From a virus, in the IMG/VR virus record IMGVR_UViG_3300033148_003940, positions 1-21,729 of that record: 21,729 bases of DNA; one strand, written 5' to 3'. The notes beneath the pieces were generated by a model. It had not been told where the DNA came from. It ran no database searches and worked only from the letters and a program-made list of their open reading frames with translations. The position numbers were made by a program, and so were the translations under genes. Position 1 is the stretch's first letter; the number at the start of each line of letters is the position of its first letter. Positions 8,841-19,192 of the stretch are shown in pieces.

Positions 8841-10031
8841 CTAAGCTACAGTTGTTCAGTTAGTGATGTCGTAAGTAGCAATTCTTTTATCATTGCTTCA
8901 TAAAACAGCTCATCCCCAAGCATTTTCCCAAAGTAGGTTTTTAGAGAAAGATTTTTCTCAATCTGTTGTTTTCATTCCAATCATTTGGAAAGGAACATTA
9001 ACAGCATTAGTTTCCATTGCGAACATTACTCTAGATGCAGTTCAAAGTGCTAAGTTGTCAGCAGACTCTGAAATAACAATGTATCTTCAAGCAGTAAATG
9101 CTCAGATGTCAGAAGTGAAAGCTCAAAGATTAACATAAGCTTGTCTTAGTAATTGTCTATCAGCAGCAGAAACATCTATATAAGTTGTAGCTGAAGGAGT
9201 TCAAGTTCAATTAACAGCAGCAATTAAATTTGCTTGTGTCGCAGCAGCATCAGCTCAGATAGAAATATCTCAAGCAGCAGCAGCAGATCAAGCAGTTTGG
9301 AAAGTAAATACTACTCAGTTAATTGTAATTGTATCAGCATCAGTTGGTAAACCATCAAGAGTGATTTTTTGTTTGTAAGGAAGGTTATTTGTAGAAATAA
9401 CATTCATTCAAGCAAGCATTCAAGCAAAACCTTTAAGTCTAGCATTTAATCATTTGTCAAATCAGATGTTTAAATCAGAGTTGTTGATAAGTGCTCTTAC
9501 TGCTGGGTTAATGAATAGGTAAACATTTCAAGCGTCTACATCTACATTAGCTTCTTCAAGCTTTTGAGCTATAGCATTTACTTCGTCAACTACGTCAGTT
9601 TTAACTAAAGTTCAAGGAGCAAGATCTTTAATCTTGTTAGTATCGTTAACTCATTTCACTGCAGTAACTGCTGTAAATTGATCGTTAACTACTCTAATTG
9701 ATTGTGCAATCCTTGCAGCTAAACCATTTTCAAGAGAAAGATTTGATCTAATAAGTTCAATGTCTTTAATCTTTAGGTTTTTCTTAGCTGATTGATCAAT
9801 AGTTAAATTGTGATCAGCGATAGCCCAATCTGATGAAGTGATGTCTTCTCAAAGTGTAGTTCAAAGCTCCATTTCAAATGAAGGATATTCTTGTACTGTG
9901 ATGATTTGTCACATTCTTCTTAGCTCACCTTCGTAAGCTCTGTTAGCTAGTGGGAAGATAGAAGCTTTTTTATCAAGCTTTCTAATTACTTCAGCCATTA
10001 GCTGTGGTGTTGTTATGATAGTATTTGCCAT
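8841..10031 (-). CDS. Major capsid protein
   Basis: This 396-residue protein has the order typical of P22/HK97-fold coat proteins. The N-terminal helix segment (MANTIITTPQLMAEVIRKL) is followed by a conserved core (SIFPLANRAYEGEL, VQEYPSFEMELG, IKDIELIRSNLSL), then YLFINPAVRALIN at about 171-183. An inserted Ala/Gly-rich beta domain at about 223-295 reads ITLDGLPTDADTITINGVVF, then AAATQANLIAAVNGTG and DVSAADRQLL, similar to insertion domains of other podovirus coats. I count 30 glycines, of which 24 are TGA, 4 GGT and 2 GGA; the three Trp are TGG. The stop is TAG, one of the few in the window. It follows the scaffold-like gene after a 26-base gap with no Shine-Dalgarno sequence. Confidence 0.85.
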
Positions 10032-13286: not shown

Positions 13287-14735
13287 TTATAGTATTCAGT
13301 CTAAATCTGCTACTTCTGAGTTATCATCAAAGTAATATTCATCATCATCTCAAAGGTTATTAACTTCTGTTAGCCTTATTGCAGAACAAAGTGAATCTAA
13401 TAGATCATCGTGTTTTCAATTAGGAAACTTAAGTAATTCTGTTTCAAGCTCTCAAATATTCTCTGTAGATCTACTGTGTAAGATAGTCCTTGCAGAATAT
13501 CTAGGCTGTAAGATTGATTTAATCCTAGCTTCTTTCTCTCACTGTGGATTTACTTCTTCCATTACAAAGAACTTATCTCTGAGTCTCATTTGCTTTCTGA
13601 TCTCTAAGGCTAACATCTTTTGATATTGTACCACCTCTACTCATAACCTGTAAGAAGCTCAAGCGTGCTTAAACTTATCACTGGTTGCAAATACTGCATC
13701 TATGATTGCATCTGGTTCTTCCTTAAGCTGTTTTACTTCTAAAACATAGATTAGGTTAGATTTAGGATCTATTCAGATAGTTACTAATCAAGTAAAGTCA
13801 GCTTCTTGTTTCTTACTAATTGCAGGATCTAAAAAACTAATAATATTGAGTCTTTTGATTACTCACATTTGTTCTGAACTGTTGTAGTATTCAAAGTATT
13901 CTTTAATAAATGTTCAGCCTCACTCATTAATTGGATCTCACATATAAAGTGATTGGTAATCTCTTTCTCACATAACATTTCTTTTTCATTGTATAAAATC
14001 TAAAGGGAATTTCTCAGGGAATATTGTAGTATCTCCTAATTCCACTGGTATGTTAATAATTTCCCATTCTTTTCATTCCAATTCCATTATCTTACCAAAT
14101 AAATCATCTTCTCACCATCTAGTCATTACTAGAACTTGAGCTGAGTCTTTATGAAGTCTTGATAGGAATACTGAAGTGTACCAATCCCACACAGCATTTC
14201 TTACTGTTAAACTTTCATATTCTTGTCTGTCTTTATGCACATCATCAATTATTCAAAGATCTACTGGTTTTCAAGTTAAACTTCAACCAACTCAAACTGC
14301 ATTAAAAGTTCATCATTCTTTAAGCTCGTAACTAGTTGCTGTGTTTGATAGCAAATTTATTTCTCATAGGTGTTGAAGTTTTTCCGAATCTACTAATTGT
14401 CTAATTTTAGACAAGTGTGATTTAGATAAATCTTGAGAGTAGCTAGCAAGAGCAATATTTAAAGAGTTATCTTTTAAGTGTGCAAATAGAGGAAATCTTT
14501 GAGAACTTATAGTGGACTTTCAGTGTTGTGGTGGAACAGAGATCATTAATTTTTTAATCTCTCATTTTAACACTCTTTCTAATCAATCTGTTATTTGTTT
14601 ATGAAAAGGTTTGAATAAATATCATTTAGTGGGGTGTCAAGAAAAAGGGTCAACATAAGTTGTGAAGTTTTCTAATCTTCTTCTTGCTAACTCTCTTTTT
14701 GCTAATTCAATTTTAGCTTCATCTTTAGTTATCAT
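13287..14735 (-). CDS. terL: Terminase large subunit (packaging ATPase/nuclease)
   Basis: This 482-residue protein is the motor that cuts and pumps phage DNA into the capsid. The ATPase domain shows Walker A VPPQHGKST (67-75), the box AVGVGGSLTGKPVDL (146-160) with Walker B GIIDD (161-165) and DVHKDR, then MTRWGEDDLFGK matching the family's TRWxEDDL. The nuclease domain has FLDPA with D303, ADFTG, and KHDDLLDSL with D443, D444 and D447, the usual acidic metal ligands. Several invariant glycines (G72 of Walker A, G155, G161) are TGA codons, which makes this gene the clearest proof of UGA=Gly. The ATG overlaps the end of the small-subunit gene by 11 bases. Confidence 0.95.
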
Positions 14736-15677: not shown

Positions 15678-15929
15678 TTATAGTTTCTGGAAAGTAATAT
15701 TGTCAGATACTTTTATTTGGAATCCACAATATTGGTTTCCTATTTCTGGTAATCAAAATTTAATTGGTACAATAAATGGTATTCAGATTGTATCTCAAGG
15801 TCAAATTCACTTAACTTGTTTTAATTGATTAAATACTTCTTTAAATACTGGGATTAATTTCTTAATCATTGCCCTAGTAGCTGTCCATCATTCTTTAGCC
15901 AATAGTTCTTTAGTATCTTTGAAAGTCAT
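15678..15929 (-). CDS. Unknown 83-residue protein
   Basis: A small protein with a helical first half (TATRAMIKKLIPVFKEVFNQ) and a Gly/Pro/Ile-rich second half (GIGPGDTIGIPFIVPIKFG, then NQYCGFQIKVSDN), which reads like a small beta-domain. A single Cys is present. The TGA-coded Gly cluster GIGPGDTIG would be four stops in the standard code. The leader is a perfect TAACTAAATAA box overlapping the stop of the preceding gene. The family is not recognised; position between the early genes and terminase gives no strong hint. Confidence 0.75.
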
Positions 15930-16762: not shown

Positions 16763-17503
16763 TTATTTAATTAGTCCTGGGTTTTCGTAAATGTTTCAGA
16801 TTACTTCAAATTCAGTTGCTTTATATGTTCACTCCATTCATCAATCGAAGTAAAATCATAGCACCTTCTTTTCTTTTACCTCAACTCTATAATCTCAATA
16901 AATCTCACCACTCATTCAAGTGTAGCCATTATAAGCCTTATTTACTTGTAATATGTCTCAAGTGTAAATATCCTTTCAGTTCTTGTCTTTTAGTCAGACA
17001 TATTTACCTCTGTGTTCAAATGTATTAGGTTGAAACTTAGTATTTATAAGCCTAGACAATGTGTAAATTTCTGTAGTTCACAACCTTTTATTGTACAATC
17101 TGTATTTTTCTTCCTCAAGTTTTACATCTCATTTAATGTATCATTTACTATCCTGCCTTTCTATATTTTCTGCGTGTAATTTAGCGTGCTCTTTTTGATT
17201 TGTATAAATTTCAAGATTATCAATATCATTATTCATTTTATCTTCATCTTTATGATGTACTATTTCAGCTTTTAATAGAAGTCTTCATAGCTTTTCTTCC
17301 ATTATAAGTCTGTGCTCTCTTACATATCATCTACTATCAGCGTTTGGGTGTCATTCTACTAATCTAATCCAGTATCAACCGTTGTTTTGTCTTCATTTAA
17401 AGTTATGTGCTCACCTTCAATCTCTTGGCTTATCTATAGTTTTAATTTCATACTCTTTTCAAGTTTCTATGCATTTTGCAGTAAATTTTATTTCTCTGTT
17501 CAT
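16763..17503 (-). CDS. HNH endonuclease fused to a YopX-type domain
   Basis: This is a 246-residue, two-domain protein. The HNH part at about 59-115 reads GYVREHRLIMEEKLGRLLL, then EIVHHKDEDKMNND, IDNLEIYTNQKEHAKLH. The family's HH pair (H83, H84), the Asn-Leu of DNL and the closing ExHAxLH are all present, so a nicking or cleaving activity is plausible. After a linker, residues 157-243 match the YopX family of phage proteins: YVGLKDKNGKDIYTGDIL near its start and EFEVIGNIYENPGLI at its end. YopX-domain function is unknown. The gene starts 1 base after the previous stop. It follows the anti-defence genes in the same run. Confidence 0.8.
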
Positions 17504-17670: not shown

Positions 17671-17925
17671 TTAAACTTCTTTCCAGTCTTCTGCAAGTAA
17701 ATCTGATTGAGAAGCTAGCCATCAAGGTTGCATATCTCAAGTAGCTGTTTTCATTCAAATACAATCTTGCATTGGATAGCTTCATTCTTGATTTTTATAT
17801 AAAGCGTTTCAAGCCTTAATTAATACTAACCACATTCCTTTTCAATTCCAACCTTCTCTAGCAACGCTTTTTCATTCTTTAAGCCTTTTTAAAGCTTCTC
17901 CAAAGTTTAAGTTTGTAGTTTCCAT
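17671..17925 (-). CDS. tad2: Tad2-type anti-Thoeris sponge protein (DUF2829)
   Basis: This 84-residue protein covers the whole DUF2829 family: NFGEALKRLKEGKSVAREGW, then NGKGMWLVL, then a central PMQDCIGMKTATGDM and the closing WLASQSDLLAEDWKEV. Known Tad2 proteins bind the cyclic ADP-ribose signal of Thoeris, and some bind other cyclic nucleotides, and so block the host's NAD-depleting response. The Gly residues of EGW-NG-KG, ATGD and QPGW are partly TGA-coded, so the gene is invisible under the standard code. Tad2 proteins form tetramers; nothing here contradicts that. It shares its leader with the Acb2/Tad1-like gene two places upstream. Family call is strong; ligand specificity is not known. 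Confidence 0.85.
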
Positions 17926-17943
17926 AATATTTAAAATTAGTTA
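17926..17943 (-). promoter_or_regulatory. Leader shared with the Acb2/Tad1-like gene
   Basis: On the minus strand TAACTAATTTTAAATATT lies directly before the ATG of the Tad2-like gene. The same 18 bases lie directly before the ATG of the Acb2/Tad1-like gene (18417-18434). The gene in between has a related leader, CTAATTAATAAATATT. Confidence 0.55.
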
Positions 17944-17952
17944 ATTGTTTAT

Positions 17953-18108
17953 TTAAATTAAGTTGTGTAGTAATCTACAAATAAATTTTGGCATTCTTAT
18001 TTGAATAGCGTTACTCCAGGGGGCTTGTCTTCAAAATGACAAGTAGTGCCTATCACAATCTGCGTCAATGCACTCAATCCAGTGAATTAATTTTGTTTTG
18101 TTTTTCAT
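17953..18108 (-). CDS. Unknown 51-residue protein between two sponge genes
   Basis: A small basic protein (MKNKTKLIHWIECIDADCDR, then HYLSFGRQAPWSNAIQI and CRLLHNLI) with three Cys and three His residues. It lies between the Acb2/Tad1-like and Tad2-like genes and shares their leader type, so it may be another small counter-defence protein. One TGA codon is read as Gly in SFGRQ. No family is recognised; the context is the only hint. Confidence 0.65.
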
Positions 18109-18116
18109 AATATTTA

Positions 18117-18416
18117 TTAATTAGAGTAACCTGCTATGGTTTTGGTTTCTTTATCTTCTTGCACAGGTGGCTTGTCGTAGATGCTCACTCCTCAATCAAG
18201 AGCTTGAAAAACTTTTCAAAGTCTCATAATTGAATCCTCTAAATGCCTGTAAGACAAAGTAAGATTTGCGATAACTTCTCATTTATCAGCATCTTCATTG
18301 TGTGCTACTCAGTATCAGTTTTCTATAACTGCATCCTTTGTAATCTTAATTTTTTCTCACAACTTTTTTAAAACTGCTCTGTATTCAGTAATTGTGGTTT
18401 CTAATGATGGTCACAT
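18117..18416 (-). CDS. Acb2/Tad1-family cyclic-nucleotide sponge
   Basis: A 99-residue protein with a helical N-terminal half (ETTITEYRAVLKKLGEKIK) and a conserved segment at 50-82: ANLTLSYRHLEDSIMRLGK, then VFQALDGGVSIYDK. This YRHLEDxxMRLGK...GGVSxYD pattern is the signature of the Acb2/Tad1 hairpin domain. Acb2 proteins sequester CBASS cyclic di- and trinucleotides, and Tad1 proteins bind Thoeris cyclic ADP-ribose signals; the fold is a small helical-hairpin hexamer. Conserved Gly residues in RLGK and DGG are TGA codons. Start chosen at the ATG directly after the AT-rich leader shared with the Tad2-like gene. I cannot decide from sequence alone which signal it binds. Confidence 0.75.
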
Positions 18417-18434
18417 AATATTTAAAATTAGTTA
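18417..18434 (-). promoter_or_regulatory. Leader shared with the Tad2-like gene
   Basis: The 18 bases before the ATG (TAACTAATTTTAAATATT) are identical to those before the Tad2-like gene at 17926-17943. No G-rich ribosome site is present. Confidence 0.55.
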
Positions 18435-18874
18435 TTAATTATTTTTAGAGGCTTACGCTTAACACCTCGTATGCTTAGACTCTCTTCCTAAGACAATGTT
18501 AAGTCGGTTTACAGCCCTGTTTAAATAGATAAGTGTAATGTGCAGGATTTTTCCAAGTGTCTAGCACTATCTTTCTCCACTAGAGTTAAAATTTAACTTT
18601 TATGATTGTTTATTTTTGTAAACAATTCTCTCATTGGGGTGAGGTAGAAATCATACTACCATATTTGTTGCACACTACACACAGCTATTTAAATTTTCTA
18701 TTTTATTCCCTAAAAATGTAAGTTGTGAAGATTTATTTACAGATCTTTAGGCTATTCTGTTGGTTTGTCCGTCGACTGGTGTTTGTCTCGCCAAGATTAT
18801 CACTACCATAAATCCAACCAGTAAGCTTAAAGCTATTCACAACCTACAGTTTTAAGAAACAAATTTAATCACTT
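18435..18874 (-). other. Long gene-free region, candidate regulatory or ncRNA segment
   Basis: No convincing protein gene is present on either strand. The content is less AT-rich than elsewhere, especially around 18740-18830. Structures on the minus strand include a perfect 8-bp hairpin at 18605-18626 (ATTGTTTA, loop CAAAAA, TAAACAAT) and a near-perfect stem GCATACG/CGTAAGC at about 18443-18467. The word TATGGTAGT occurs twice, at the start of two 20-codon frames (18600-18662 and 18747-18809). A GTG-started 23-codon frame begins near 18566. None is recognised. It separates the recombination genes from the anti-defence run, so it could hold a promoter or a small RNA. No clear -35/-10 pair is seen. 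Confidence 0.5.
18605..18626 (-). other. Perfect 8-bp hairpin
   Basis: Arms ATTGTTTA and TAAACAAT with a six-base loop, within the gene-free region. The minus-strand 3' side continues CATAAAAG, without a U-tract, so it is not an intrinsic terminator in that direction. It may be an operator or an RNA stem. Confidence 0.45.
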
Positions 18875-19192
18875 TTATTTAAAATTAATGTAATGTGTAA
18901 ATAAATACTTTAGCAATTTTATTGTGTCGTAGTTTCCTCAGTCTAAGTAAACTAAACCTTTTTTATTCCTTAATTTAACTCAAGCTCCTTGCTTAGTGAT
19001 TCAGTTCTTTTTTGAAAACTCTTGCACACTTGTATTTCCTTCTGGTTTATTTTCCTTTATCTTTAAAACAATAGATACTATGTAAATTATTATCTCTCTA
19101 TTATTGTAAATTCATTTGTCAAAATGGATTCAAGTTTTTGATTTAAACTCTTCTAGCTCTTTGTACATTTCTCTGTATTTTTCTTTGAACAT
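18875..19192 (-). CDS. Unknown 105-residue protein
   Basis: A Lys/Ile-rich protein (MFKEKYREMYKELEEFKSKT, then NNREIIIYIVSIVLKIKE) followed by QEFSKKNGITKQGAGVKLRN and KKGLVYLDGGNYDTIKLL. The second half could be a small winged-helix or beta-rich fold. It is the last gene of the recombination module before the gene-free region. The leader AACTAAATAAACA is of the stop-rich type. TGA codons occur at six Gly sites. The family is not recognised. Confidence 0.7.

Follow-up and report, generated by a model that had tools for sequence, protein, structure and literature searches.

Gene Layout and Genetic Code

The window, by which we mean the whole 21,729-nucleotide stretch that was analyzed, corresponds to bases 1-21,729 of a 23,778-base IMG/VR virus record. 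All of its large genes are carried on the minus strand, and the late genes are followed by a run of small genes and then by a RusA match and an Erf/Rad52-type annealing protein. The features discussed below are these, with the basis of each identification:

8841-10031, minus strand: major head protein match, among the late genes
13287-14735, minus strand: terminase large subunit, among the late genes
17671-17925, minus strand: tad2 gene, 84 aa, seven TGA(Gly) codons (PF11195 profile, PDB sequence matches, conserved columns, fold)
17923-17933, minus strand: leader TAAATATTATG at the tad2 start codon (exact 11-mer)
17953-18108, minus strand: 51-aa ORF between tad2 and the hairpin gene, one TGA codon (leader common with its neighbors)
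18106-18116, minus strand: leader TAAATATTATG at the start codon of the 51-aa ORF (exact 11-mer)
18117-18416, minus strand: gene for a 99-aa predicted two-helix hairpin protein of the YRHLED family, seven TGA(Gly) codons (motif, family alignment, PF24729 in relatives, model)
18414-18424, minus strand: leader TAAATATTATG at the hairpin-gene start codon (exact 11-mer)

Two other minus-strand genes are recorded in passing: 16763-17503 is a single gene in which HNH_3 endonuclease and YopX domains are joined, and 15678-15929 encodes an 83-aa protein that has no family match and is 76% conserved in a code-25 relative, L213.

The use of genetic code 25 (TGA read as glycine) in this phage, as originally predicted, is well supported by three kinds of evidence. 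Frames of at least 100 aa cover 0.86 of the window when translated with table 25 and 0.15 with table 11; a codon count over six large genes gives 267 TGA and 63 GGN glycine codons; and TGA encodes glycine 67 of the hairpin protein, a position invariant in 51 of 51 family members. TGA likewise encodes the invariant G18 and G28 of Tad2. A search for tRNAs, suppressor tRNAs included, found none in the window and none in the 2 kb of the record that lie beyond it.

A Tad2 Family Member

The 84-aa protein is, on profile and modeled structure together, certainly a member of the Tad2 family, and the prediction of a DUF2829 gene is confirmed. It matches PF11195 (formerly DUF2829) at an E-value of 2.4e-25 and 89.3 bits, against a cut-off of 25, over positions 1-73 of the 73-position profile, and it matches the sequences of solved Tad2 chains in the PDB at 1e-12 to 1e-15. 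All 16 columns that are invariant in an alignment of 31 sequences are present. The AlphaFold2 model (pLDDT 90.3) recovers ModTad2, SptTad2 and SPO1 Tad2 by Foldseek at E-values of 5e-8 to 1e-5, and every one of the 24 PDB chains reached at E ≤ 0.001 is a Tad2 or an AcrIIA7.

Its ligands can be narrowed by analogy. Cyclic-dinucleotide binding by Tad2 has been ascribed to an insertion between strands (PMC12043709), and SPO1 Tad2 does not bind 3'3'-cGAMP (PMC11722364). In our alignment the long insertion in the beta-strand region that marks the cyclic-dinucleotide-binding subtype is absent from the window protein. Given that the window protein shares the short form with SPO1 Tad2, cyclic dinucleotides are probably not among its ligands, which would be ADP-ribose-derived signals only.

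The Cassette and Its Shared Leader

One small gene had been said to separate the two sponge-type genes, and the 51-aa ORF is indeed the only one between them; no homologue of it was found. The 11-mer TAAATATTATG, which includes the start codon, occurs three times in the window against 0.04 expected in shuffles, and all three copies lie at start codons, those of tad2, the 51-aa ORF and the hairpin gene, and nowhere else in the window. For the hairpin gene and tad2 the match extends further upstream (AACTAATTTTAAATATTATG). The recurrence of the leader at three genes is thus more than chance. A 37-kb syntenic code-25 relative (L215) has proteins that are 78%-87% identical across much of the late module, yet it carries no Tad2 and no member of the YRHLED family, so the cassette is accessory.

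The 433-nt non-coding stretch 5' of the hairpin gene (18438-18870, minus strand) is a candidate unannotated structured RNA. Its minus strand folds at -111.2 kcal/mol, compared with -82.7 kcal/mol for dinucleotide shuffles (z = -5.3; plus strand, z = -3.5). No Rfam family scored over threshold within it, a sub-threshold SAM-II match lies nearby at 18900-18945, and a comparison with GenBank phages gave no match.

The YRHLED Family

The second gene had been described as encoding an Acb2/Tad1-type protein. The window protein by itself has no match to PF24729 (Acb2_Tad1_hairpin) at an E-value of 10, it has no sponge-family match in Pfam, PHROGs, PADLOC, NCBIfam or the PDB sequences, and a single-protein scan of IMG/VR returned no relatives. 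Its family is marked by an invariant YRHLED..MR.GK helix, and the back-translated pattern YRHLED..MRLGK was found in 88 IMG/VR stretches, all of which encode one kind of short protein (or the ends of longer frames). The alignment of 51 members has 13 invariant columns (R13, E47, N51, YRHLED, M64, R65, G67 and K68). Three members used as tblastn queries against 50,697 GenBank phages found none, and GTDB genomes gave seven matches, the best to a Patescibacteria MAG and the other six to Verrucomicrobia, Bacteroidetes, Gemmatimonadetes, Kiritimatiellia, Fibrobacter and one unassigned bacterium. In these data the family is confined to phages from metagenomes and to the genomes of uncultured bacteria.

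It is through its relatives that the window protein can be connected to the known sponges. PF24729 is matched by 44 of the 51 members, mostly weakly and with counts that are not independent, the members being mutually related; each other Pfam family is matched by at most three. Scores range from 13 to 27.9 bits, with many at 20-27, against a cut-off of 27, so that one member, the best of those tested, passes the curated threshold at 27.9; the canonical T4 Vs.4 and PaP2 p26 reach 71 and 66 bits. When a profile built from about 100 ordinary hairpins was run against 22,615 ORFs, 96 YRHLED ORFs took up most of the places just beneath the true hairpins (best E-value 0.18), and in the converse search, with the YRHLED profile, ordinary hairpins ranked first. 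A profile-profile comparison with the wider hairpin set scored 22.2 (the highest of 100 column shuffles reached 15.2), at a probability of only 15%, and hhalign of the family against nine canonical Acb2 proteins gave nothing (0.3% probability).

The modeled structure of the window protein (pLDDT 83.5) has helices at 5-33 and 45-73 and no strand. A fold search with it retrieves T4 Vs.4 (Z 8.0, rmsd 4.5, 71 residues aligned), at a score that many unrelated hairpins equal, and a PDB search with the family profile returned only syntaxin-like and other unrelated helices. The modeled fold thus agrees with the superfamily, but helical hairpins are so common that it does not discriminate. We judge it quite probable that the hairpin protein is a true, remote branch of the Acb2/Tad1 hairpin superfamily, a placement that comes from the family members and not from the window protein. 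The earlier assignment to an Acb2/Tad1 type is supported only indirectly, through the family, 44 of 51 relatives matching PF24729 and one exceeding its cut-off; for the window protein itself the profile check on PF24729 was negative.

Recurrence of Paired Sponges

No Tad2 was found in 50 contigs carrying the YRHLED family and no YRHLED member in 50 contigs carrying Tad2, and the combination of YRHLED with Tad2 is a single case. These 50 + 50 contigs first suggested that a Tad2-hairpin pairing was unique, an idea that was dropped once ordinary hairpins were tested. An ordinary hairpin and Tad2 are immediate neighbors in four phage contigs (L092, L235, L323 and L240), so that two sponges side by side is a recurring arrangement. 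Pfam confirms the pairs in L235, L323 and L240; these are the only three of 120 ordinary-hairpin loci in which Tad2 was found, each time adjacent, and the order of the two genes is reversed in L240. This phage stands apart in its YRHLED partner and in its use of code 25.

In L092 (6001-6446) the ordinary hairpin frame that adjoins Tad2 is broken by a TGA stop. Six other contigs (L006, L003, L073, L067, L002 and L080) encode, besides a YRHLED member, a second hairpin protein of the ordinary or near-ordinary Acb2/Tad1 kind. A single phage with two sponges has a precedent in SPO1, where Tad2 and Acb4 bind different ligands (PMC11722364).

Hosts and Nucleotide-Signaling Immunity

Phages that use code 25 are assigned mainly to Absconditabacteria, code-25 prophages are known in Absconditabacteria and Gracilibacteria, and some Gracilibacteria have a type III-A CRISPR system (PMC10746230). 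The original prediction described CPR bacteria as not usually credited with rich defenses. That premise is dated, a groundwater survey having reported high defense density and diversity in CPR, with fewer systems per genome (PMC12259885). Our own host-side sample comprised 380 CPR genomes, none of them identified as code-25. In 23 of the 380, a CD-NTase SMODS domain scores above the cut-off, which supports the view that CPR bacteria can carry nucleotide-signaling immunity. In L180-L189, several CPR CD-NTase genes precede genes for small proteins predicted to lie in the membrane, an arrangement like that of CBASS operons (judged by eye; MAG contamination is possible). Tad2 was found in 1 of 380 CPR genomes and PF24729 in 2 of 323. 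The Thoeris ThsA (STALD) domain exceeded the cut-off in none of the 380, which is weak evidence, as the control genomes also gave none. A search for the host through the terminase gave no match dense in in-frame TGA among the 380 genomes, and one with a single TGA.

It had also been suggested that the sponges might act in the organism on which the host lives. This is disfavored by the coding of the genes: each of the two carries seven in-frame TGA codons read as glycine, and with no tRNA in the 23.8-kb record, Tad2 and the hairpin protein should act in the code-25 cell and not in a partner organism.

Interpretation

The explanation that we favor, with moderate confidence, is a small accessory anti-defense cassette in which Tad2 and a second, putative nucleotide sponge block two arms of immunity. 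It draws on the homology and fold of Tad2, the PF24729 matches within the YRHLED family, the adjacency of ordinary pairs, the common leader, the SPO1 precedent and the absence of both genes from L215. Most likely, a Tad2 tetramer would sequester ADP-ribose-derived Thoeris signals, and the YRHLED hairpin protein would be a second nucleotide sponge that packs as an oligomer. The latter may take a signal not bound by Tad2, perhaps one of the cyclic di- or trinucleotides used by CBASS or by type III CRISPR, so that the pair would block two arms of nucleotide-signaled immunity within a host whose TGA codons are read as glycine. The ligand of the hairpin protein is not readable from sequence, and its predicted sponge function is probable. 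Of the claim that two different sponge families lie side by side, the Tad2 half thus stands by homology and fold, and the hairpin half is probable, its product being a putative sponge.

It is rather unlikely, in our estimation, that Tad2 alone is anti-defense and that the hairpin protein is a chance neighbor with another role, such as morphogenesis or regulation. Such a role would fit the lack of a direct profile match for the window protein, the weak profile-profile results (probabilities of 0.3% and 15%), the failure of the YRHLED family and Tad2 to occur together in any of 100 other contigs, and the fact that in several phages YRHLED relatives lie close to late genes, those for terminase and portal among them (identities by eye). 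Late-gene location, however, is shared by canonical Acb2, which in Vibrio phage XM1 lies beside a tail assembly chaperone gene and in JBD67 adjoins a PF07030 gene. Furthermore, the curated PF24729 cut-off is reached within the family, the adjacency of ordinary hairpins and Tad2 recurs, and the common leader ties the hairpin gene to Tad2. A different objection is that both proteins bind the same class of Thoeris signal, the hairpin protein being a Tad1-like back-up for Tad2 and not its complement. PF24729 unites the Tad1 and Acb2 hairpins, so there are anti-Thoeris members in the superfamily, and gcADPR is bound by Tad2 and Tad1 alike (PMC12043709). The hairpin model nevertheless lacks the N-terminal beta-sheet of Tad1, which adjoins the loops that form the Tad1 pocket (PMC12043709), and we consider redundancy of this kind improbable.

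A stronger form of the two-sponge reading can be put forward only tentatively. The YRHLED family may be a distinct sponge class with its own pocket (the invariant Y56, R57, H58, E60, D61, R65 and K68) for an unknown signal, which together with Tad2 would disable two signaling systems in CPR hosts with a recoded TGA and an as yet undescribed nucleotide immunity.

If the two-sponge cassette is real, code-25 phages face nucleotide-signaled immunity inside code-25 hosts, and the direct prediction is that Thoeris, CBASS and type III effectors will be found in Absconditabacteria and Gracilibacteria. The YRHLED family would then be an uncharacterized branch of the Acb2/Tad1 hairpins, apparently in no isolated GenBank phage. 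The recurring Tad2-hairpin neighborhood offers a simple handle for finding anti-defense genes beside either.

Comparison with Known Systems

The window Tad2 resembles SPO1 Tad2, ModTad2, SptTad2 and HgmTad2 in profile, predicted fold and invariant residues, including GWNG and W..SQ.D.L..DW. It differs from known Tad2 proteins in being 84 aa long with seven glycines encoded by TGA, and from SptTad2 in being about 18 residues shorter between strands, where it is without the long insertion of that protein.

The hairpin protein, as modeled, shares the two long helices of the PF24729 superfamily, and in the second of these SLALTKLEEAVMWANASI aligns without gaps with LTLSYRHLEDSIMRLGKVF (by eye and by profile-profile comparison). 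The tryptophan of the MW motif is replaced by arginine in the YRHLED family, which has invariant residues of its own, and the window protein is itself unrecognized by the profile. With canonical Acb2 (PaP2/PaMx33 p26, T4 Vs.4) it has in common the predicted hairpin core, the size and a frequent late-gene location. The N-terminal GY motif and a downstream lysine (Y11 and K26, PaP2 numbering), which we take to be ligand contacts, are invariant in the canonical Acb2 alignment and absent from the YRHLED family, as they are from the window protein; the known Acb2 dinucleotide pocket is thus not conserved. Together with the 0.3% profile-profile probability, this rules out a canonical Acb2. A canonical Tad1, in which an N-terminal antiparallel beta-sheet precedes the two helices, is likewise ruled out, the window model having no beta-sheet domain.

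A parallel to the pair as a whole is SPO1, a phage with two sponges, one of them a short Tad2. The SPO1 partner, Acb4, binds 3'3'-cGAMP (PMC11722364), and its fold is unrelated to that of the window hairpin protein.
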